From: Rhizobium sp. Q54
Lineage (GTDB): Bacteria > Pseudomonadota > Alphaproteobacteria > ATCC43930 > CGMCC-115725
Length of the DNA: 49,682 nt
NCBI GenBank assembly: GCA_945861155.1
Contig: CAMATN010000023.1
Location: 1-49,682, forward strand
Reading direction: 5' to 3'
Shown here one piece after another: positions 32,406 to 41,275 of the stretch. Below the pieces are notes generated by a model. That model worked only from the letters and a program-made list of their open reading frames with translations, searched no databases and was not told the origin of the DNA. Made by a program: the position numbers and the translations under genes. Each line of letters starts with the position of its first letter. Positions within the stretch are counted from its first letter, which is position 1.

Positions 32406-34154
32406 TCAGGCCACGCGATCGCCTTGCTTGATCTCAACCGTGCGGTTGTCGACCGCGGGGAGCATTTGAGCGGGGTCGCGGGTGACGACGACGTCGATGA
32501 CTGTCGGGCGGTCGCGCTCTTCCATGCCCTGCCGAAGTGCCGGAGATAACGCCTCGGGGTCCTCGACGCGAATGCCGCTGCAGCCCATCGTGCGGGCGAT
32601 CGCCGCGTAATCCATCTCGTTGAGGTCGGCCGACTGATAGCGACCGCCCATCATCGCGTGCTGCAGCGCCTTGACGTAGCCGGAGGCGGCGTTGTTGACG
32701 ACGATCATCGTCAGACCGCACCCGGTGCGGCGCGCGGTCTCGAGTTCGCCGAGCGTCATGTTGAACCCGCCATCGCCGCTGATCGCGACGACCGGCCGGT
32801 CGGGCGCCGCGAGGGCGGCACCCATGCCGCCGGGCAGCCCGTAGCCGATCGAAGCGAAGCCGCGATCCGGAATGAAATGCCGTCCCGGACTCTTGGTGTC
32901 GTAGAGCAATCCGGTCCAATGCCCGGCGAACCCGCCATCGGCGACGAGGATCGCATCCGCCGGCAGGGTCTGGTTCAGCTCGCGGCAGAGGCGCGCCATA
33001 TGCACCGGCCGGTCGCGCGAATTGAGACGCGGCGCGGCATCCTCTTCCCAGGCCCGCATGCGCGGCGCGATTTCGGCGACATAGTCGGCCCGCGCCGCGC
33101 GGGCGGCGGCGCCGCCATCGGACAGCGCCTCGGCAAGGTCTTCAAGCCCGGCTCGCGCGTCGCCCCACAGCGCGATCTCGGCGGGGATGCAGCGGCCGAT
33201 CTCCTCGGCGACGATGTCGAGATGGATGACCGGAATGTGGGAAGGCGGCAGCACAAAGCGCTTGGTCGCGATCTCGCCGAGCTTGCAGCCGACGACGATC
33301 AGGCAATCCGACGCCTCGATCAAATCGTTGGCGATGCGCGAATAGCGCCCGAACAGGCCGACCGACAGCTTGTGCGCGCAGGCGATGCCCCCCTTGCCGC
33401 TCATCGTGTGCGCGACCGGGATCGATTGCGCTTCGGCAAAGCCCGTCAGCACGCTCCAGGCTTCCGACAGGTGAATTCCGCCGCCGGTCAGCAATAGCGG
33501 CCGTTTTGCTTTGGCGATCATCGCCGCCGCGCGCTCGATATCGGCGCGGTCCGGGCGGATACGCCGTGCCGGGGCCTTTAGCGTCGCTTCATCGACGACG
33601 AAATCCTCGGGGGTGAAATCGTGGACGCCGTGGGCCACGTCCTCGGGCACGTCGAGCAGCACCGGCCCCGGCCGCCCCGAGGTCGCCACCGCGAACGCGC
33701 GCCGCACCAGCTCGGGGATGCGGCTTGTCATCTCGACGCGGATAAGCTCCTTGACCGCGGGCTTGAGGATTTCGACCTGGCGGCATTCCTGGGTCATGTT
33801 CTTCCAGGAATGCGCGCGGTTGGTGTCGCCGGCGATCGCGACGATCGGGATGCCGCCATTCAGCGACTCGACGAGCCCGGTGACGAGGTTGGTCGCGCCG
33901 GGGCCAAGCGTGCCGTCGCAAATGCCCGGGCGATTGGTGACCCGTGCATAGGCGTCCGCGGCGAACGCGCCACAGCGCTCATCGTTGATCAAATGGTGGT
34001 TCAGGCCGACAAGGCCGATCGCGTCGTAGAACGGCAGCAGCTGGAACCCGCCCATGCCGAACATCGGCCCGGCGCCCGACAAACGCAGCATCTCCGCGAG
34101 GGCGCGCCCGCCGGTCATCGTGCCGGACGGGCGATTTTGCAGCGTGAGCGTCAT
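32406..34154 (-). CDS. ThDP-dependent enzyme, acetolactate-synthase-like
   Basis: 582 residues with the three domains of the IlvB family. The catalytic Glu59 lies in NDERCGAFAADAYAR, the middle domain has the RPLLLTGGGIHLSEAW pattern, and the ThDP/Mg motif GDGGFNMTLGELETARRTG...NN is in the last domain. The N-terminal GAGPMFGMGGFQLLPFYDAIG is unusual for acetolactate synthase and closer to uncharacterised 2-oxoacid decarboxylase-like members. No small regulatory subunit follows. AAGGAG precedes the start at 34154. The upstream genes encode an unknown two-domain protein and E1 subunits, also ThDP enzymes. Confidence 0.85.
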   Translation of the reverse strand: MTLTLQNRPSGTMTGGRALAEMLRLSGAGPMFGMGGFQLLPFYDAIGLVGLNHHLINDERCGAFAADAYARVTNRPGICDGTLGPGATNLVTGLVESLNGGIPIVAIAGDTNRAHSWKNMTQECRQVEILKPAVKELIRVEMTSRIPELVRRAFAVATSGRPGPVLLDVPEDVAHGVHDFTPEDFVVDEATLKAPARRIRPDRADIERAAAMIAKAKRPLLLTGGGIHLSEAWSVLTGFAEAQSIPVAHTMSGKGGIACAHKLSVGLFGRYSRIANDLIEASDCLIVVGCKLGEIATKRFVLPPSHIPVIHLDIVAEEIGRCIPAEIALWGDARAGLEDLAEALSDGGAAARAARADYVAEIAPRMRAWEEDAAPRLNSRDRPVHMARLCRELNQTLPADAILVADGGFAGHWTGLLYDTKSPGRHFIPDRGFASIGYGLPGGMGAALAAPDRPVVAISGDGGFNMTLGELETARRTGCGLTMIVVNNAASGYVKALQHAMMGGRYQSADLNEMDYAAIARTMGCSGIRVEDPEALSPALRQGMEERDRPTVIDVVVTRDPAQMLPAVDNRTVEIKQGDRVA

Positions 34155-34206
34155 GTCATCTCCTTTGTGGCAGCCGGCCCCCAGAGCGCACCGACGCACG
34201 CCGATT

Positions 34207-34243
34207 CCTCCCCCGCAAGCGGGGGAGGGTTAGGGTGGGGGTC
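34207..34243. repeat. G/C-rich hairpin element (same family as 3385-3408)
   Basis: The hairpin 34207-34228 (CCTCCCCCGC, loop AA, GCGGGGGAGG) is followed by GTTAGGGTGGGGG. Orientation is opposite to the copy at 3385. It lies between two leftward genes. Confidence 0.85.
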
Positions 34244-34268
34244 ACCAGCCGCACGGCCTTCTCTGGCG

Positions 34269-35072
34269 TCAGGCGAGGGCGCGCCGCAGCCCGGCGACGA
34301 ATTCGCGCGCGCTGATGCCCTCGCGCAGGCCGAGCGCGGCGGCGCGCGCGTTGACCCGGCTGATGATTCCGTCCTCGTAAGTCGAGCGCGCGTCGCCGAT
34401 GCGAGCGCTTGCCGCCGCGACTGTCGCGGCCGCGATGCCGCGTGCGTCGAGCGCCGGCAAGCGCGAGATTCCGGCGTCGTCAATTCCGATCCCGGCGTCG
34501 TTGTAGAGGGCGCCGAGCACGTCGTATTTGAGCGCGGTCTCCGGCCTGCCGCCGAGGAGCCCCCCATGCGAGCCGGTGACGACGATCGAATCCTTGTGCT
34601 CGGGCAAGACCAGCGACGCGGAGTCGAGAGCCCAGACTTGCGGCGCGTCGGAGATCAGCAGGAACGCCGCCTCGAGCGCTTCCGGCGGCGCGCGACGGGT
34701 CGGCCGCGCCTGTTGCAGCCTGGCGGCGGCGTCGCGGCACGATTGGCCGGGGCCGACCCCAAGCGATGCCGCCGGCCCGTTCGCATGGGTGACGACGCCC
34801 CGCGCCATCATGTCGGCGCCATCGCCGATCCGCGCCGTATCATGACCGACGGTCGCGGCGGCGATGCCGAATTCTTCCAGGTAATCGAGGCCGCCAATCC
34901 CGGCGCGGTCGCGGCCGATCCCGGCGTCGTTGAAAATCGCCGCGGCGGCATGGAGCGTCGCCGCGAGATAGGCGGCATAGACGCCGCCGTGCGACGCGTT
35001 GACGACGACCGCGCCGGCGGCTTCAGGCCCGATGCGGGTAATGCTGTCGGCGATGACGATCGAGGCGGGCAT
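34269..35072 (-). CDS. Uncharacterised protein with two tandem copies of one domain
   Basis: 267 residues, not assigned to a named family. Two halves align: residues about 14-110 (VVVNASHGGVYAAYLAATL, IFNDAGIGRDRAGIGGLDYL, GIAAATVGHDTARIGDG, GVVTHAN) and residues about 165-260 (IVVTGSHGGLLGGRPETAL, LYNDAGIGIDDAGISRLPAL, GIAAATVAAASARIGDARST, GIISRVN). Each has an SHGG, an NDAGIG, and a TARIGD/SARIGD motif, so the fold likely has a pseudo-twofold active site with conserved His and Asp. It lies 13 bases after E1 beta and precedes the ThDP enzyme. Function unknown. Confidence 0.8.
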   Translation of the reverse strand: MPASIVIADSITRIGPEAAGAVVVNASHGGVYAAYLAATLHAAAAIFNDAGIGRDRAGIGGLDYLEEFGIAAATVGHDTARIGDGADMMARGVVTHANGPAASLGVGPGQSCRDAAARLQQARPTRRAPPEALEAAFLLISDAPQVWALDSASLVLPEHKDSIVVTGSHGGLLGGRPETALKYDVLGALYNDAGIGIDDAGISRLPALDARGIAAATVAAASARIGDARSTYEDGIISRVNARAAALGLREGISAREFVAGLRRALA

Positions 35073-35085
35073 TGACCGCCACCCC

Positions 35086-36060
35086 TCACGCCGCCTCGGA
35101 TCTCCGGCCCCGAAGCACCTCGCGGATCCCGGCGGTGATCCTGCCGCGATCCGGGAAGACGTGGTTTTCGAGGACCGGGCTGTAGGGAATCGGCACCTGC
35201 AGGGCACAAACCCGCTTCACCGGCGCCTTCAGGGCTGCGAATGTAGCGGCGTCCTCCGTGACAAGGGCGGCGACCTCCGCCGAGAAGCCGGCCGTTGGCC
35301 CGGCCTCGTCGGCGATGACGAGCCGGCCCGTTTTCTGCACCGAATTGCGGATCGTCTCGGTATCCAGCGGCACCAGAGTGCGCGGATCGACGATTTCGAC
35401 CGAAACTCCCTCCTTGGCGAGTTCTTCGGCCGCGGCCAGCGCCTCGTGGACCAGCCAGGCGAGCGCGACGACCGTCACGTCATCGCCCTCTCGCTTGATG
35501 TCCGCCACGCCGAACGGGATCGTGTAGTCGTCCTCCGGCACCGGTCCCTTGCGCGCCATCAACCGGCTCGACTCGAACGAGATGACCGGGTTGTTGTCGC
35601 GGATCGCCGTCTTCAAGAGGCCCTTCATGTCGTGGGGCGTCGACGGCAGAAACATCTTCAAACCGGCCACATTCATGAACATCGAATAGGGCGACTGCGA
35701 GTGCTGCGCCGCGACGAGGCCCCCGCCCCCGACGGCGGCCCGATAGAGGATCGGGAAATTCACCTGGCCGCCGAACATGTAATGGATCTTGGCGGCCTGG
35801 TTGACGATCTGGTCCATCGCGACGAAGCAGAACGTCACCTGCCGCCAGTCGACGATCGGGCGGAAGCCGCAGCCGGCCGCGCCGATCGCCATCCCGGTCA
35901 GCGCCGCTTCGGTGATCGGCGTCGCCCTGATCCGCTGCGGCCCGAACTCCTTGAGCAGCGGCGGCAGCGCGTCGGTTGACATGTAGAAGATCTTGGGGTC
36001 GCGCCGCATCTCCTCGGCGATGGCTTCGAGGGCGGCCTCGTTGTACGTCAGCTCTCGCAT
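35086..36060 (-). CDS. 2-oxoacid/acetoin dehydrogenase E1 component, beta subunit
   Basis: 324 residues, the beta half of a heterotetrameric ThDP E1. Conserved features include the N-terminal LTYNEAALEAIAEEMRRDP, then GMAIGAAGCGFRPIVDWRQ and FLPSTPHDMKGLLKTAIRDN, as in PdhB/AcoB. The C-terminal transketolase domain reads LVPLDTETIRNSVQKTGRLV. It lies 15 bases downstream of the alpha gene. E2 and E3 genes are absent here. Confidence 0.92.
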   Translation of the reverse strand: MRELTYNEAALEAIAEEMRRDPKIFYMSTDALPPLLKEFGPQRIRATPITEAALTGMAIGAAGCGFRPIVDWRQVTFCFVAMDQIVNQAAKIHYMFGGQVNFPILYRAAVGGGGLVAAQHSQSPYSMFMNVAGLKMFLPSTPHDMKGLLKTAIRDNNPVISFESSRLMARKGPVPEDDYTIPFGVADIKREGDDVTVVALAWLVHEALAAAEELAKEGVSVEIVDPRTLVPLDTETIRNSVQKTGRLVIADEAGPTAGFSAEVAALVTEDAATFAALKAPVKRVCALQVPIPYSPVLENHVFPDRGRITAGIREVLRGRRSEAA

Positions 36061-36075
36061 CGTCCGATCCTCGAC

Positions 36076-37059
36076 TCAGGCTGAAAAGACGTCGTCGGTC
36101 GCGTGCTCGGGCAACGGGAACGGGCTCGCCTCGGCGAAGGCGATCGCGGCTTCGAGCGCGGCCATGATGTCGCCCTCGATGCTCTGCAGCCCGGCATCGT
36201 CGAGTTCGCCCTGTTCCCGGAGTCGCCGCTCGAGCAGCGCGATCGGGTCCTTTCGCATCCATGCGTCGACCTCTGCCTTGTCGCGAGGGTCGGCTTGCCC
36301 TTTGCGCTCGGTGTGGGCGCGCTGGCGGTAGGTCTTGCACTCGATCAGCGTGGGGCCGCCGCCTGAGCGCGCCCGATCCACCGCGGCGTTCGCCGCCTGA
36401 TAGACCGCGAAGACATCGTTGCCGTCGACCACGATTCCCGGAATGCCATAGCCGGCCGCGCGGCCCGCCACATCGGGCAAGGCGTGGGTCTGGGCGGCCG
36501 ATGTCTGGGCCGCATGCAAATTATTCTCGCAGACGTAGAGCATCGGCAGCTTCCACGTCGCCGCGATATTGAGGCATTCGTGGAACGGCCCCGCGTTCGA
36601 TGCGCCGTCCCCGAAGAAGGAAACCGCGACGCCGCCCTTGCCTTCCATCTGCGCCGCCAGCCCCGCGCCGGTGATGATCGAGATGCCGCCCGCGACGATG
36701 CCGTTGGCCCCGAGCATCCCGATCCCGAAATCGGCGATGTGCATCGAGCCGCCCTTGCCCTTGCAGTAGCCCGTTTGCCGACCGTAGAGCTCGGCCATCA
36801 TGCGGTTGAGGTCGGCGCCCTTGGCGATGCAGTGGCCGTGGCCGCGATGCGTCGAGATGATCCGGTCGCCGCGACCGAGCGCGGTGCAGACGCCGACAGC
36901 GGTCGCTTCCTCGCCGATATAGCAGTGCACGACGCCGTATATCTTGCCGGCATTGTAATCCGCCGAAGCGCGTTCCTCGAAGCGGCGGATCGTCAGCATT
37001 TGGCGCAGCATCTCACGCTGCTTATCAGGCGCCAGGTTCGGCGAGAGGCTCGTTGGCAT
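36076..37059 (-). CDS. 2-oxoacid/acetoin dehydrogenase E1 component, alpha subunit
   Basis: 327 residues. Decarboxylates a 2-oxoacid, or cleaves acetoin, with ThDP. Visible features: TIRRFEERASADYNAGKI, STHRGHGHCIAKG, GRQTGYCKGKGGSMHIAD and the ThDP/Mg motif GDGASNAGPFHECLNIAA...ENN. The sequence is closest in style to acetoin dehydrogenase AcoA and pyruvate dehydrogenase PdhA. The ATG at 37059 with GGGA upstream gives the usual length; in-frame ATGs at 37095 and 37122 are alternatives. Confidence 0.92.
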   Translation of the reverse strand: MPTSLSPNLAPDKQREMLRQMLTIRRFEERASADYNAGKIYGVVHCYIGEEATAVGVCTALGRGDRIISTHRGHGHCIAKGADLNRMMAELYGRQTGYCKGKGGSMHIADFGIGMLGANGIVAGGISIITGAGLAAQMEGKGGVAVSFFGDGASNAGPFHECLNIAATWKLPMLYVCENNLHAAQTSAAQTHALPDVAGRAAGYGIPGIVVDGNDVFAVYQAANAAVDRARSGGGPTLIECKTYRQRAHTERKGQADPRDKAEVDAWMRKDPIALLERRLREQGELDDAGLQSIEGDIMAALEAAIAFAEASPFPLPEHATDDVFSA

Positions 37060-37197: not shown

Positions 37198-38352
37198 CTA
37201 CAGCGTCGCCGAATTCCCCAGGATGACCGTGCTCTGCGACGACAAGACCCCGCCATTGCCGTGCGCGATCGCGGTCTGGGCGCCGGCGACCTGGCGCGCG
37301 CCGCATTCGCCGCGCAATTGCCGCACCGCCTCGATCAACAGGAACAACCCATACATGCCGGGGTGGCAATAGGAGAGGCCGCCGCCATTGGTGTTGACCG
37401 GCAATTCGCCGCCCGGCGCGATCCGCCCGCCTTCGACAAAACTTCCACCCTCGCCTTTCGCGCAAAAGCCGAGGTCTTCGAGGCACAGAATCGGGTTGAT
37501 CGTGAACGCGTCGTAGAGCTCGACGACGTCGATGTCGGCGGGTTTGAGCCCTGCCATCGCATAGGCTTGCCGCCCCGATTCGAGCGCGCCGGTCACGGTC
37601 AGGTCGGGCATGCTCGAAATATTGGCATGGGTGATCGCCGCGCCGCATCCAAGCACATAGACCGGGGGCTTTTTCAGCGATTTGGCGCGTTCCGGCGTGG
37701 TCAGCACGATTGCGCCGCCGCCATCGGTCACGAGACAAATATCGCGCACCGTGAACGGATAGCTGACCATGCGGGCGCCGAGCACCTCGGGGATCGTCAG
37801 CGGCTTCTTTTCCCAGGCCGCCGGGTTGAGGAGCGCCCATTGCCGCGCCGCGACCGCGACCTCGGCCAATTGCTCGCGGGTCGTCCCGAATTCGTGCATG
37901 TGGCGCGAGGCCGCCAGCGCATAGGCGGTCGAGGGCAGAAACGGCCGGTACGGCGTCTCGTACGGATTGATCTCGCGCACCGAGGCCTGCTGCCGCCCGA
38001 CGCTGCGCTGGGTGCTGCCATAGGCGATCACCGCGACCTCGCACAGGCCGAGCTGAAGCGCCGCCAGCGCATGCGAGACGTGGAACATAAAGGACGAGCC
38101 GCCGAGGATCGTGGTGTCGACAAAGCGGGGCGAAATCCCGAGATATTCGCTGAGGTTGAGGCCGGAGGTGCGGCTCTGCGTCGTCGCGCACAGGAGGCCG
38201 TCGATGTCGCGCAGCTTGAGCCCGGCATCCTCGACCGCGCGCGAGATGCCCTGCGCCATCAAATCGATCACGTTGAACCCGTCGCCGACCAGGCCGAGAT
38301 CGCTTTCGGCTGCCCCGACGATCGCCGCCCCGCCGCGTTGGAGGCCGGTCAT
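37198..38352 (-). CDS. Thiolase-fold protein (lipid-transfer/SCPx-like)
   Basis: 384 residues with the thiolase fold. The region where thiolases carry the nucleophilic Cys reads TILGGSSFMFHVSHALAALQ, without cysteine; VNTNGGGLSYCHPGMYGLFL keeps the His motif, and the C-terminus has AIAHGNGGVLSSQSTVI, where the second Cys is replaced. Such proteins pair with a DUF35/OB-fold protein and act as retro-aldolases or acyl-CoA binding proteins in steroid and fatty acid breakdown. Its start overlaps the stop of that partner by four bases (ATGA). Confidence 0.87.
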   Translation of the reverse strand: MTGLQRGGAAIVGAAESDLGLVGDGFNVIDLMAQGISRAVEDAGLKLRDIDGLLCATTQSRTSGLNLSEYLGISPRFVDTTILGGSSFMFHVSHALAALQLGLCEVAVIAYGSTQRSVGRQQASVREINPYETPYRPFLPSTAYALAASRHMHEFGTTREQLAEVAVAARQWALLNPAAWEKKPLTIPEVLGARMVSYPFTVRDICLVTDGGGAIVLTTPERAKSLKKPPVYVLGCGAAITHANISSMPDLTVTGALESGRQAYAMAGLKPADIDVVELYDAFTINPILCLEDLGFCAKGEGGSFVEGGRIAPGGELPVNTNGGGLSYCHPGMYGLFLLIEAVRQLRGECGARQVAGAQTAIAHGNGGVLSSQSTVILGNSATL

Positions 38353-38735
38353 GGCGCGCCCTCCGCCGGAATAAAGACCGGGTAGGCCGGTTCCTCGCCA
38401 TCGGGCTTGTGGACCCGGAAGCGCACCCGCATGCCGATCGTGACCGCCATCGAGTCGATATCCTCGACCCGGCTCATCAGCCGGAACCCCTCGTCGCAAT
38501 CTACGAGCGCGACGTTATAGGGTTCGCCCCGCTGAAACGGGTGGGTGACGGTCGTCGCGTGCACCGTGCCGAGCCCCGAGGCGACCCGCCATTCGAGCGC
38601 CGTACTGCCCGAATAGGGGCAAACGAGACGCGGATAAAACACCGCCCGCCCGGCCTCGGGGCTCCACTGATAGGCCAATTCGCCTTTGTCGAGATGGGCC
38701 TGGTAGATCGCCAGCGGCGATTGCGTTTCGGTCAT
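38349..38735 (-). CDS. OB-fold acyl-CoA binding protein (DUF35 family), thiolase partner
   Basis: 128 residues. The C-terminal OB fold reads LGTVHATTVTHPFQRGEPYNVALVDCDEGFRLMS. The N-terminal rubredoxin-like zinc ribbon normal for the family has decayed: at YPRLVCPYSGSTAL only one Cys is left. GGGAGAGGAGG lies before the start at 38735. Translationally coupled with the thiolase-fold gene, with which it should form a complex. Confidence 0.9.
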   Translation of the reverse strand: MTETQSPLAIYQAHLDKGELAYQWSPEAGRAVFYPRLVCPYSGSTALEWRVASGLGTVHATTVTHPFQRGEPYNVALVDCDEGFRLMSRVEDIDSMAVTIGMRVRFRVHKPDGEEPAYPVFIPAEGAP

Positions 38736-38754
38736 AACGACCTCCTCTCCCGCT

Positions 38755-39114
38755 TCAGCCAATTGCGCTTTTGGGCGGCATTTCGTCCAACCATTGTAGC
38801 GCGAGTTTGGGTTCGCCGGGCGTGTTCGCGTCGTGTGAGGATCGCATCCGTACCAAGCGGTCGTGCAGTGCGAATGCCTCTACATACCCGAGGCTGTGAC
38901 GCAGGTCGTCTATCTGTGTACCCCGTTCGAGCAATTCGGCTACGGCAGGGTCTTGCAGCCGGGCATGCAACCGAGCACCGAGCTGATCGATAGCCGCGTC
39001 ATTATGGCCGAACAGGCCCCATTGTCCCTTTGCACATCGCTGCAAAGCCGACAGCAGCAGCTCCGAGTAAAGCACTTCGAGCGCTTCGAGTCTGCGTTCG
39101 GCAGCGGGGCTCAT
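38755..39114 (-). CDS. Conserved hypothetical protein, 119 residues
   Basis: Soluble, helical. It contains LLERGTQIDDLRHSLGYVEA, then FALHDRLVRMR and ANTPGEPKLALQWLDEM, which looks like a small family of proteobacterial hypothetical proteins. Not assigned to a function. It begins 6 bases after the stop of the upstream hypothetical gene and the ribosome binding site (AGGGCGGA) overlaps that stop codon, so the two are probably translated together. Confidence 0.7.
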   Translation of the reverse strand: MSPAAERRLEALEVLYSELLLSALQRCAKGQWGLFGHNDAAIDQLGARLHARLQDPAVAELLERGTQIDDLRHSLGYVEAFALHDRLVRMRSSHDANTPGEPKLALQWLDEMPPKSAIG

Positions 39115-39120
39115 TCCGCC

Positions 39121-39390
39121 CTACTGCTGCCCAGGGTTCCGACAGATAAAGCTGGTCGCGGCGGGCACGATCGCTGCCGGCAGCACCCCGTCGTCGACAG
39201 CAAGCCCGACGTGAACATAGCGCTCGGTGTTCTCCAGCAGCTGAACTTCGACCTGAAATGCTTTGGATTCATATTCGACCTCGTATGTTTGCGGCTGGCG
39301 CAGCGCCGCGAGCAGTTCCTCGCACGATTTGCCTGACCACCGGCTCGTTTCGGCGTCGAGAACGCGACGCCATTGCTGGCGTCGAGACAC
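39121..39390 (-). CDS. Hypothetical protein, 89 residues
   Basis: The frame runs from a GTG that shares one base with the TAG stop of the CoA-transferase B gene (TAGTG). The peptide includes WSGKSCEELLAALRQPQTYE, then VEYESKAFQVEVQLLENTERYVHVGLAVDD, which reads as a beta-strand-rich protein of unknown family with two cysteines. It is followed at 6 bases by another hypothetical gene. Good coding bias and tight packing support it as real. Confidence 0.7.
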   Translation of the reverse strand: MSRRQQWRRVLDAETSRWSGKSCEELLAALRQPQTYEVEYESKAFQVEVQLLENTERYVHVGLAVDDGVLPAAIVPAATSFICRNPGQQ

Positions 39391-40046
39391 TACGGCAGCG
39401 CCAGCGGCGCGTCGGTGCGTTCCTGAAGCGCCTCGATGGTCAGGCCCGGCACCATGTCGATAACGGCGAAACCGGCCGGGGTCACGTCGATGACCGCCAG
39501 CTCGGTATAGACCCGCGTCACGCAGCCCTTCGCGGTCAGCGGGTAGGTGCAGCGGCGTAGGAGGCGCGCGTCGCCCGAGCGGGTGTTGTGCTCCATGACG
39601 ACCCAGATCCGCTTGGCGCCGGCGGCGAGGTCCATCGCTCCGCCGATCGCCGGGGCGTTGTCGTCGTCCGAGCGCGCCCAATTGGCGAGGTCGCCGTTCT
39701 CGGCCACCTGAAACGCGCCGAGCACGCACAGATCGAGATGGCCGCCGCGGACCAGCGCAAAGCTGTCGGAATGGCTCATATAGCTGGCGCCGGGACGCAA
39801 GGTCACATACTGGCTGCTGGCGTTGATCAGCCAGCGGTTGACCTTGTCGGGCGCCGGGGCCGGGCCCATGCCGAGGATGCCGTTCTCGGAATGGAAAATG
39901 ACCTCGCGCTCGGGCGGCACGAAATTGCCGACCAGCGTCGGAATGCCGATGCCGAGATTGACCGACCACCCTTCCGGGATGTCCCGCGCGAGGCGCGCGG
40001 CCAGCGCATCGCGATCGAGCGGCTGCCAAGTCACGGTTTCCACCAT
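39390..40046 (-). CDS. CoA-transferase subunit B, second copy
   Basis: 218 residues, complete. VNLGIGIPTLVGNFVP at residues 29-44 and FHSENGILGMGP, with Glu54 as the catalytic glutamate. NGDLANWARSDDDNAPAIGGAMDLAAGAKR and VTPAGFAVIDM fit 3-oxoacid/3-oxoadipate CoA-transferase beta chains. Its partner A gene is at 40195-40881 upstream, with a repeat element between. Confidence 0.92.
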   Translation of the reverse strand: MVETVTWQPLDRDALAARLARDIPEGWSVNLGIGIPTLVGNFVPPEREVIFHSENGILGMGPAPAPDKVNRWLINASSQYVTLRPGASYMSHSDSFALVRGGHLDLCVLGAFQVAENGDLANWARSDDDNAPAIGGAMDLAAGAKRIWVVMEHNTRSGDARLLRRCTYPLTAKGCVTRVYTELAVIDVTPAGFAVIDMVPGLTIEALQERTDAPLALP

Positions 40047-40074
40047 TTCAGTCTCCTAAATCAATACCACCGCT

Positions 40075-40157
40075 CGTCATGACCGGGCTCGTCCCGGTCA
40101 TCCACGCCTTTGCCGCGGCGGCCTCGTGGATGGCCGGGTCAAGCCCGGCCATGACGG
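40075..40157. repeat. Paired hairpins in a larger inverted repeat
   Basis: Arms 40075-40106 (CGTCATGACCGGGCTCGTCC start) and 40125-40157 are inverted copies, and each arm is itself a hairpin (40081-40099 GACCGGG/CCCGGTC; 40132-40150 GGCCGGG/CCCGGCC). It lies between the CoA-transferase A and B genes, so both subunit genes here, too, are separated by a structured element. Confidence 0.85.
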
Positions 40158-40194
40158 TTGTGGAAAATTTCGGAAGCAGGGACACGATCGTCAT

Positions 40195-40881
40195 TCAATT
40201 CTTGAGGGGCGGGTCCCCGGCCGCGACATGCACCAGCCGGTCGACATAGATGCCGGGGGTCGCGATCTCCTCGGGCGGCAACTCGCCGAGCTCGGCCATG
40301 TGCTGGGTCTGCACGATCGTCAGCGTGGCCGCCGCGGCCATCACCGGGTTGAAGTTGCGCCCGGCGTCGCGATAGACGAGGTTGCCCCAGCGATCGGCGC
40401 GCCAGGCCTCGACCAGCGCAACGTCGCCCGGCAGCGCGTGTTCGAGGATGTATTCGCGGCCGTTGAAAACGCGCGATTCCTTGCCCTCGGCCAGCTTGGT
40501 GCCGGCGGCGGTGGCCGTGTAGAAGGCGGGGATGCCAGCGGCGGCGGCGCGCATCCGCTCGGCCATCGTGCCTTGCGGCAATATTTCGAGTTCGATCCCG
40601 CCGCGGGCGAAAACCTCCTCGAAGATGACCGAGCCGCGGCTGCGGGCAAAGCTGCACACGATCTTGCGCACCCGTCCCTCGCCAATCAGCCGCGCCACGC
40701 CCTCGCGGCCGCGCCCGGCGGTGTTGTGGACGACGGTCAGGTCGCGCGCGCCCTGCTCAATCAGGCCGTCGATCAGAGCCCTGGGCTCGCCGACCTGGGC
40801 AAAGCCGGCGATCAGCACGGTCGCGCCGTCCTTGATGCCGGCCAAGGCCTCGGCCACCGAGCGGACTGATTTGTCGATCAT
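40195..40881 (-). CDS. CoA-transferase subunit A, second copy
   Basis: 228 residues. The glycine-rich segment is IKDGATVLIAGFAQVGEP at about residues 16-33; also QGTMAERMRAAAAGIPAFYT and VYRDAGRNFNPVMAAAA. Pairs with the B gene downstream. Substrate not determinable. The start at 40881 has a weak GGCGGAA site. Confidence 0.92.
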   Translation of the reverse strand: MIDKSVRSVAEALAGIKDGATVLIAGFAQVGEPRALIDGLIEQGARDLTVVHNTAGRGREGVARLIGEGRVRKIVCSFARSRGSVIFEEVFARGGIELEILPQGTMAERMRAAAAGIPAFYTATAAGTKLAEGKESRVFNGREYILEHALPGDVALVEAWRADRWGNLVYRDAGRNFNPVMAAAATLTIVQTQHMAELGELPPEEIATPGIYVDRLVHVAAGDPPLKN

Positions 40882-40960
40882 GCGCGTTCCGCCATTCCGA
40901 TGTTGCTCGGGTTGATTAAACCGGAAGCGCGCGGCGAGGGGAACACCCGAAGGGGAGCGG

Positions 40961-41275
40961 TCAGCCCTTGTGTTTCTGCGCCTCGACAAAGCCGCGCAAC
41001 ACGGCATTGATGCGAGTCTGATAACCGCGGCCTTGCAGCTTGAACCAGGCGATGATGTCCCTGTCGAGCCGCAAGGTCACCGGCGCCTTACCCGGCGGGA
41101 AGACGACCCGGGCATTCGCCCACTCCTCCTCGGTCCAAAACGACTGGTCCGGGTCGTCGGCCACCGCGCGTTCGATGTCCTCGTCGGTCAGCGCATTCAC
41201 GCGCGCCCAGTCAGTTCGACTTTTCATCTTCCTGGCCTGCTTCATCGATACCCGTGTAATACGCTCTTCGTTCAT
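40961..41275 (-). CDS. brnA: BrnA-family antitoxin
   Basis: 104 residues. The C-terminal ribbon-helix-helix is clear: APVTLRLDRDIIAWFKLQGR, GYQTRINAVLRGFVEA. BrnA binds DNA as a dimer and neutralises BrnT, a RelE-like ribonuclease, and represses the brnTA operon. The N-terminal half is acidic (DEDIERAVADDPDQSFWTEEEW), where it contacts the toxin. The start overlaps the stop of the toxin frame by four bases (ATGA). Confidence 0.92.
   Translation of the reverse strand: MNEERITRVSMKQARKMKSRTDWARVNALTDEDIERAVADDPDQSFWTEEEWANARVVFPPGKAPVTLRLDRDIIAWFKLQGRGYQTRINAVLRGFVEAQKHKG

Follow-up and report, generated by a model that had tools for sequence, protein, structure and literature searches.

What does a protein do that is encoded between the genes for an E1 alpha/beta pair and an acetolactate-synthase-like enzyme and that resembles nothing characterised? 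The question arises in Rhizobium sp. Q54, in the stretch of DNA analysed here (the window; 49,682 nucleotides). The protein, which we call DUP, has 267 amino acids; its family goes under the label 'hypothetical protein' in annotated plasmid records. The original prediction, made from the sequence alone, saw in it two copies of one domain and proposed a new enzyme or a cofactor-handling protein next to ThDP enzymes. DUP and its partner genes are arranged as follows.

32406–34154, minus strand: acetolactate-synthase-like (ALS-like) ThDP enzyme, 582 amino acids; Pfam TPP_enzyme N, M and C
34269–35072, minus strand: DUP coding sequence, 267 amino acids; ATG at 35072, stop codon ending at 34269
35086–36060, minus strand: E1 beta subunit; Pfam Transket_pyr/Transketolase_C; NCBIfam PRK09212 at 327 bits (cut-off 321)
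36076–37059, minus strand: E1 alpha subunit, start codon uncertain; Pfam E1_dh at 6.4e-86

E1 alpha is encoded upstream of E1 beta, 13 bases separate E1 beta from DUP and 114 bases separate DUP from the ALS-like gene. All of the best 25 NCBIfam matches listed for the ALS-like partner fall below their cut-offs (the top two reach 384.6 bits, cut-off 673, and 379.2 bits, cut-off 538), and among these matches it reaches no equivalog or subfamily cut-off as an acetolactate synthase. Its GDG...NN motif and the glutamate of NDER are kept across 49 rows. The gap between DUP and the ALS-like gene contains a G/C-rich inverted stretch (cccccgcaagcgggggaggg..., window 34200–34270) that resembles an intergenic repeat element. 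Upstream of E1 alpha, the minus strand carries thiolase-like, OB-fold-like, 119-amino-acid and CoA-transferase A/B-like genes (37198–41007), which are hardly common to the clusters of relatives.

Two copies of one domain and their conserved residues

Relatives of DUP were gathered from one scan of a genome collection (71 loci) and from genome searches; 67 rows were aligned. They show that the open reading frame is real and back its start codon, as their alignments begin at residues 1–6. The protein divides into two copies, each with the same trio of motifs at matched spacing (S27HGG, N48DAGIG and A80RIGD in the first; S168HGG, N191DAGIG and A223RIGD in the second), just as originally described.

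34695–35072, minus strand: copy 1, residues 1–126; from hhalign against copy 2 and AlphaFold
34983–34994, minus strand: SHGG of copy 1 (S27–G30); H28 in 67/74 relatives
34920–34931, minus strand: NDAG of copy 1 (N48–G51); D49 in 66/74 relatives
34821–34835, minus strand: ARIGD of copy 1 (A80–D84); from sequence and alignment
34272–34673, minus strand: copy 2, residues 134–267, with invariant His169 and Asp192; from hhalign and conservation; folded alone at pLDDT 96.2
34560–34571, minus strand: SHGG of copy 2 (S168–G171); H169 in 74/74
34491–34502, minus strand: NDAG of copy 2 (N191–G194); D192 in 74/74
34392–34406, minus strand: ARIGD of copy 2 (A223–D227); I225 and G226 in 74/74

Profiles of the two halves, compared with hhalign as had been suggested, align over 121 columns with a probability of 100 and an E value of 2.5e-42, and cross-half BLASTP matches within single relatives reach down to ~1e-19. 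At the sequence level, the internal repeat is thus far beyond chance. A failure of the halves to align, which had been named as evidence against the idea, did not occur; the repeat unit spans about 121–134 residues rather than the ~95 first estimated. Relatives with one domain of ~130–145 residues occur in two Pseudomonadota genomes that belong to one family (L076/L088 and L077/L089), as expected if a one-domain ancestor underwent duplication. Elsewhere, two DUP copies each have one in-frame stop inside the matched stretch (TGA in G704:C4:66629-67408, TAG in G567:C131:11545-12324), and one DUP-like locus (G648:C31:36180-36941) has two stretches that both best match the second half (35–38% identity).

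Conservation was read from 74 DUP sequences, among them relatives from haloarchaea, Rhizobium, Rhodococcus and Aminobacter. Invariant positions are S27, G58, G92 and N98 in the first half and H169, D192, I225, G226 and G235 in the second; N241 is present in 73 sequences, the remaining row being truncated. The claim of an invariant His and Asp therefore stands for the second half and fails for the first: 7 rows have Tyr, Phe or Asn at position 28, and 8 have Asn or Ala at position 49. The first-half His is gone in Aminobacter, Arthrobacter and Rhodococcus relatives. Because H169 and D192 are invariant and their first-half counterparts are not, the essential site probably lies in the second half. 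Four Aminobacter relatives (L066, L070, L071 and L084) combine a degenerate first half with a signal-like N terminus (MNRRTFLGSS...), and are probably exported, to judge from that N terminus.

A fold related to DUF1805

AlphaFold2 returned confident models of whole DUP, run on the 67-row alignment (pLDDT 97.0, pTM 0.93), and of the second half alone (pLDDT 96.2, pTM 0.90). The modelled pattern is Rossmann-like, with strand 22–28 followed by SHGG, strand 44–48 by NDAG and strand 71–75 by ARIGD, and the second half repeats this order of strands and motifs. Because the motifs come after three strands of this fold in each half, we predict that His169 and Asp192, with the second-half ARIGD and the N241 region, may form the essential site.

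VIA-align gave the same best match for both models: TA1206 (1qw2), at Z 7.6 over 75 residues on the first half when whole DUP was used, and, with only the second half modelled, at Z 8.3 and 2.9 Å across 87 of 102 residues, the runner-up scoring 4.5. Foldseek's own scores for the models are weak (E values of 0.42 and 0.55), and neither the whole nor the second-half model gave a Foldseek match at E ≤ 0.001. TA1206 is the only DUF1805 structure found in this analysis; we place it in DUF1805 because a DUF1805-like probe sequence composed for this purpose matches both Pfam DUF1805 (8.4e-27) and 1qw2 (2.5e-6). Other Rossmann-like VIA-align matches at Z 3–6, including SteA and CtBP, were set aside as instances of a common arrangement.

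At the sequence level, DUP scores 22.1 bits against Pfam DUF1805 (PF08827), below the curated cut-off of 29.5, and a direct hhalign comparison with TA1206 covers 23 residues only. DUF1805 profile matches of some kind occur in 60 of the 67 relatives (best, 1.3e-8), and two divergent ones exceed the cut-off (Arthrobacter L068 with 37.9 bits and Aminobacter L084 with 31.7). Given a fold match but a sub-cut-off Pfam score and so short an alignment with TA1206, we class DUP, from its modelled fold, as a distant tandem relative of DUF1805, without counting it as a member under Pfam's rule. DUF1805 proteins (TA1206/1qw2 and YunC) share the fold that is the best VIA-align match of each half, but consist of a single domain of ~100 residues, whereas DUP has two in tandem, each of about 121–134 residues compared with 102 in 1qw2. 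No PF08827 match turned up in 200 Pseudomonadota genomes; the local relatives are therefore not classical DUF1805 proteins. The papers searched gave no function for DUF1805 or YunC.

Sequence searches of the PDB with the DUP protein found nothing and, as first supposed, no characterised family was matched. Relatives do match the Y-family polymerase IMS profile of Pfam locally at RGVVTHANGPAASLGVGPG (E values down to 8.4e-7), over 24–47 residues only in most rows, and we take this to be a shared motif (G-x-[IV]-S-x-x-N-x-x-A-x-x-x-G-[VI]-x-x-G-M) rather than kinship. DUP itself scores 13.6 bits against this profile (cut-off 23.2), over positions 31–61 of 148. Y-family DNA polymerases found by profile search of the PDB (E ~0.03, one local motif) were likewise set aside as a local resemblance.

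Coupling with the ALS-like enzyme and E1

The ALS-like subfamily is rare, occurring in 2 of 398 Pseudomonadota genomes and in 36 of 385 alphaproteobacterial genomes. Leaving out the window's own genome, DUP is present in 33 of the 35 alphaproteobacterial genomes that have the ALS-like enzyme, and in 1 of 45 that lack it (G408); the two exceptions with the enzyme and without DUP are 87% and 90% complete. The association has a Fisher p of 6e-19, a statistic that ignores shared ancestry. The suspected link to ThDP enzymes is thus borne out. On a tree of the 74 DUP sequences, the ALS context requires 10 changes compared with 22 when shuffled (none of 500 shuffles was as low), with bootstrap support unsettled; the context is strongly clustered but spreads beyond one clade, and recurs in an actinobacterial and a SAR324 contig. 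Because DUP is found almost wherever the ALS-like enzyme is found in alphaproteobacteria, the two very likely share an undescribed pathway for small-acid breakdown.

Within the 33 genomes, the two genes lie less than 200 bases apart in 11, within 10 kb in 15 and unlinked in 7, the unlinked pairs being on separate contigs (five, for which an assembly break is possible) or 0.4–1.1 Mb apart. E1 alpha/beta is the usual third partner. Among the unlinked cases, two loci have DUP and E1 alpha/beta without the ALS-like gene (L192 and L197) and another has the ALS-like gene and E1 without DUP (L199); the three modules separate and recombine. E2/E3 genes were found in only one DUP cluster (L034), as a separate operon. 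At one locus (L194 in G434), DUP and E1 genes stand beside a split, two-gene transketolase-like pair.

The partnership is not universal. Whether E1 or IlvB-like genes are always neighbours had been named as a check; neither is present at 13 of the 42 loci flanked by 6 kb or more on each side. Relatives in such settings, for example in the OiaK/OiaX-like clusters described below, argue against the proposal that DUP handles the ThDP cofactor. They also bear on the first of the two main rivals to an enzymatic role, that DUP is a non-catalytic subunit, activator or scaffold needed by the ALS-like enzyme, by E1 alpha/beta or by both. Acetohydroxyacid synthase, which is served by regulatory subunits, provides the model. 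Such a partner is favoured by near-obligate co-occurrence with the ALS-like enzyme, by direct adjacency to its gene (less than 200 bp away in 11 of the 33 genomes) and by the tandem DUF1805-fold architecture, the literature searched describing no activity for this fold. Full-length relatives with no ThDP gene near and the presence of DUP in G408 speak against it, and the invariant His, Asp and Asn look catalytic, with His and Asp right after strands in the model. We consider a purely non-catalytic role doubtful.

Substrate clues and proposed reaction

In haloarchaeal plasmids and one Rhizobiales genome, DUP adjoins OiaK-like, OiaX-like and PGDH_C dehydrogenase genes. The first two have as their best NCBIfam matches OiaK (3-oxo-isoapionate kinase; 441 and 536 bits) and OiaX (3-oxo-isoapionate-4-phosphate decarboxylase; 516 and 454 bits). 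Because all these scores lie under the equivalog cut-off of 700, the clusters may use a substrate other than 3-oxo-isoapionate. RuBisCO-like proteins acting on 3-oxo-isoapionate-4-phosphate have been reported (PMC6302742). The literature searchable gave no role for a DUP-like protein in D-apionate/3-oxo-isoapionate catabolism, and the window's own cluster differs from these in having no OiaK/OiaX-like genes.

A second clue comes from transport. Sixteen DUP loci encode 4p8b-subfamily TRAP binding proteins, whose ligand we take to be (S)-2-acetolactate. According to PMC5812351, 2-acetolactate is among the TRAP binding-protein ligands assigned by Vetting et al. 2015. In beta- and gammaproteobacteria the same transport system occurs by itself, so the clue is a weak one, and we set it aside as a marker of the pathway.

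By its chemistry, 3-oxo-isoapionate is a hydroxylated analogue of 2-acetolactate, and the two have a 2-hydroxy-2-alkyl-3-oxo-acid skeleton in common; we propose branched 2-hydroxy-3-oxo acids as the substrate class on account of this skeleton. Our preferred reading, to which we give a probability of roughly 0.3, is that DUP is a catabolic enzyme for such acids, paired with a pathway of the ALS-like enzyme and E1. Tandem duplication of a DUF1805-fold domain would have produced a soluble two-domain enzyme, with the predicted site in the second half and with the first half as a pseudo-symmetric partner that may have been left to degenerate in some lineages. The substrate would be of the 2-acetolactate or 3-oxo-isoapionate type, the reaction an acid–base rearrangement (ketol-acid isomerisation) or a decarboxylation, and the product would feed the ThDP enzymes, placing DUP in one pathway with the rare ALS-like enzyme and the E1 alpha/beta pair. 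A tie to acetoin or 2-oxoacid use, as first suggested, is possible.

A narrower version, in which DUP is a non-orthologous acetolactate decarboxylase that converts imported or excreted acetolactate to acetoin, which E1 alpha/beta then cleaves, appears quite unlikely. The adjoining E1 pair and the 4p8b-type TRAP proteins at 16 loci would suit it, as would the absence of AlsD (PF03306) from six genomes that hold DUP, the window's own included; we judged this absence too weak alone, and acetolactate is a presumed ligand of 4p8b. Such a decarboxylase would leave the ALS-like enzyme without a clear role, and would not explain the OiaX-like clusters, which have a decarboxylase-like gene of their own. 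The substrate of AlsD would fall within the class proposed for DUP, but the Pfam hits of DUP at E ≤ 1 include no acetolactate decarboxylase (PF03306).

The other main rival makes DUP a general-purpose tautomerase, lactonase or other hydrolase that serves many catabolic clusters for small acids, its tie to the ALS-like enzyme being one of several uses. The neighbours of DUP elsewhere are indeed very varied (SDR, VOC, FAH, RraA, CoA-transferase, hydantoinase and GMC oxidoreductase genes), and the exported-looking Aminobacter forms would also suit a general helper. The GMC oxidoreductase, hydantoinase and thiolase/acyl-CoA contexts, which have no obvious acids of the proposed class, count against an acetolactate-type substrate. 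The coupling of DUP with one ThDP subfamily is, however, much tighter than a general helper needs, and we hold this reading, too, to be on the doubtful side. In Thalassobaculum and its kin (L046, L050, L052, L053 and L193), DUP is found beside queuosine-like genes (tgt, queA, queG and queF), and at some of these loci beside hydantoinase A/B genes as well.

Should DUP be a catabolic enzyme as we propose, it could be the first member of the DUF1805 fold to be recognised as an enzyme and could, for instance as an acetolactate-type ketol isomerase, define an undescribed way of breaking down branched 2-hydroxy-3-oxo acids together with its uncharacterised ThDP partner and an E1 lacking E2; we regard this fuller claim as unlikely. 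An unannotated two-domain family, which has more distant relatives among actinobacteria and haloarchaea, is now linked with a specific group of partner genes. A domain of unknown function thereby becomes a pathway member that can be tested, and the link suggests a use of ThDP chemistry in catabolism that has yet to be described.
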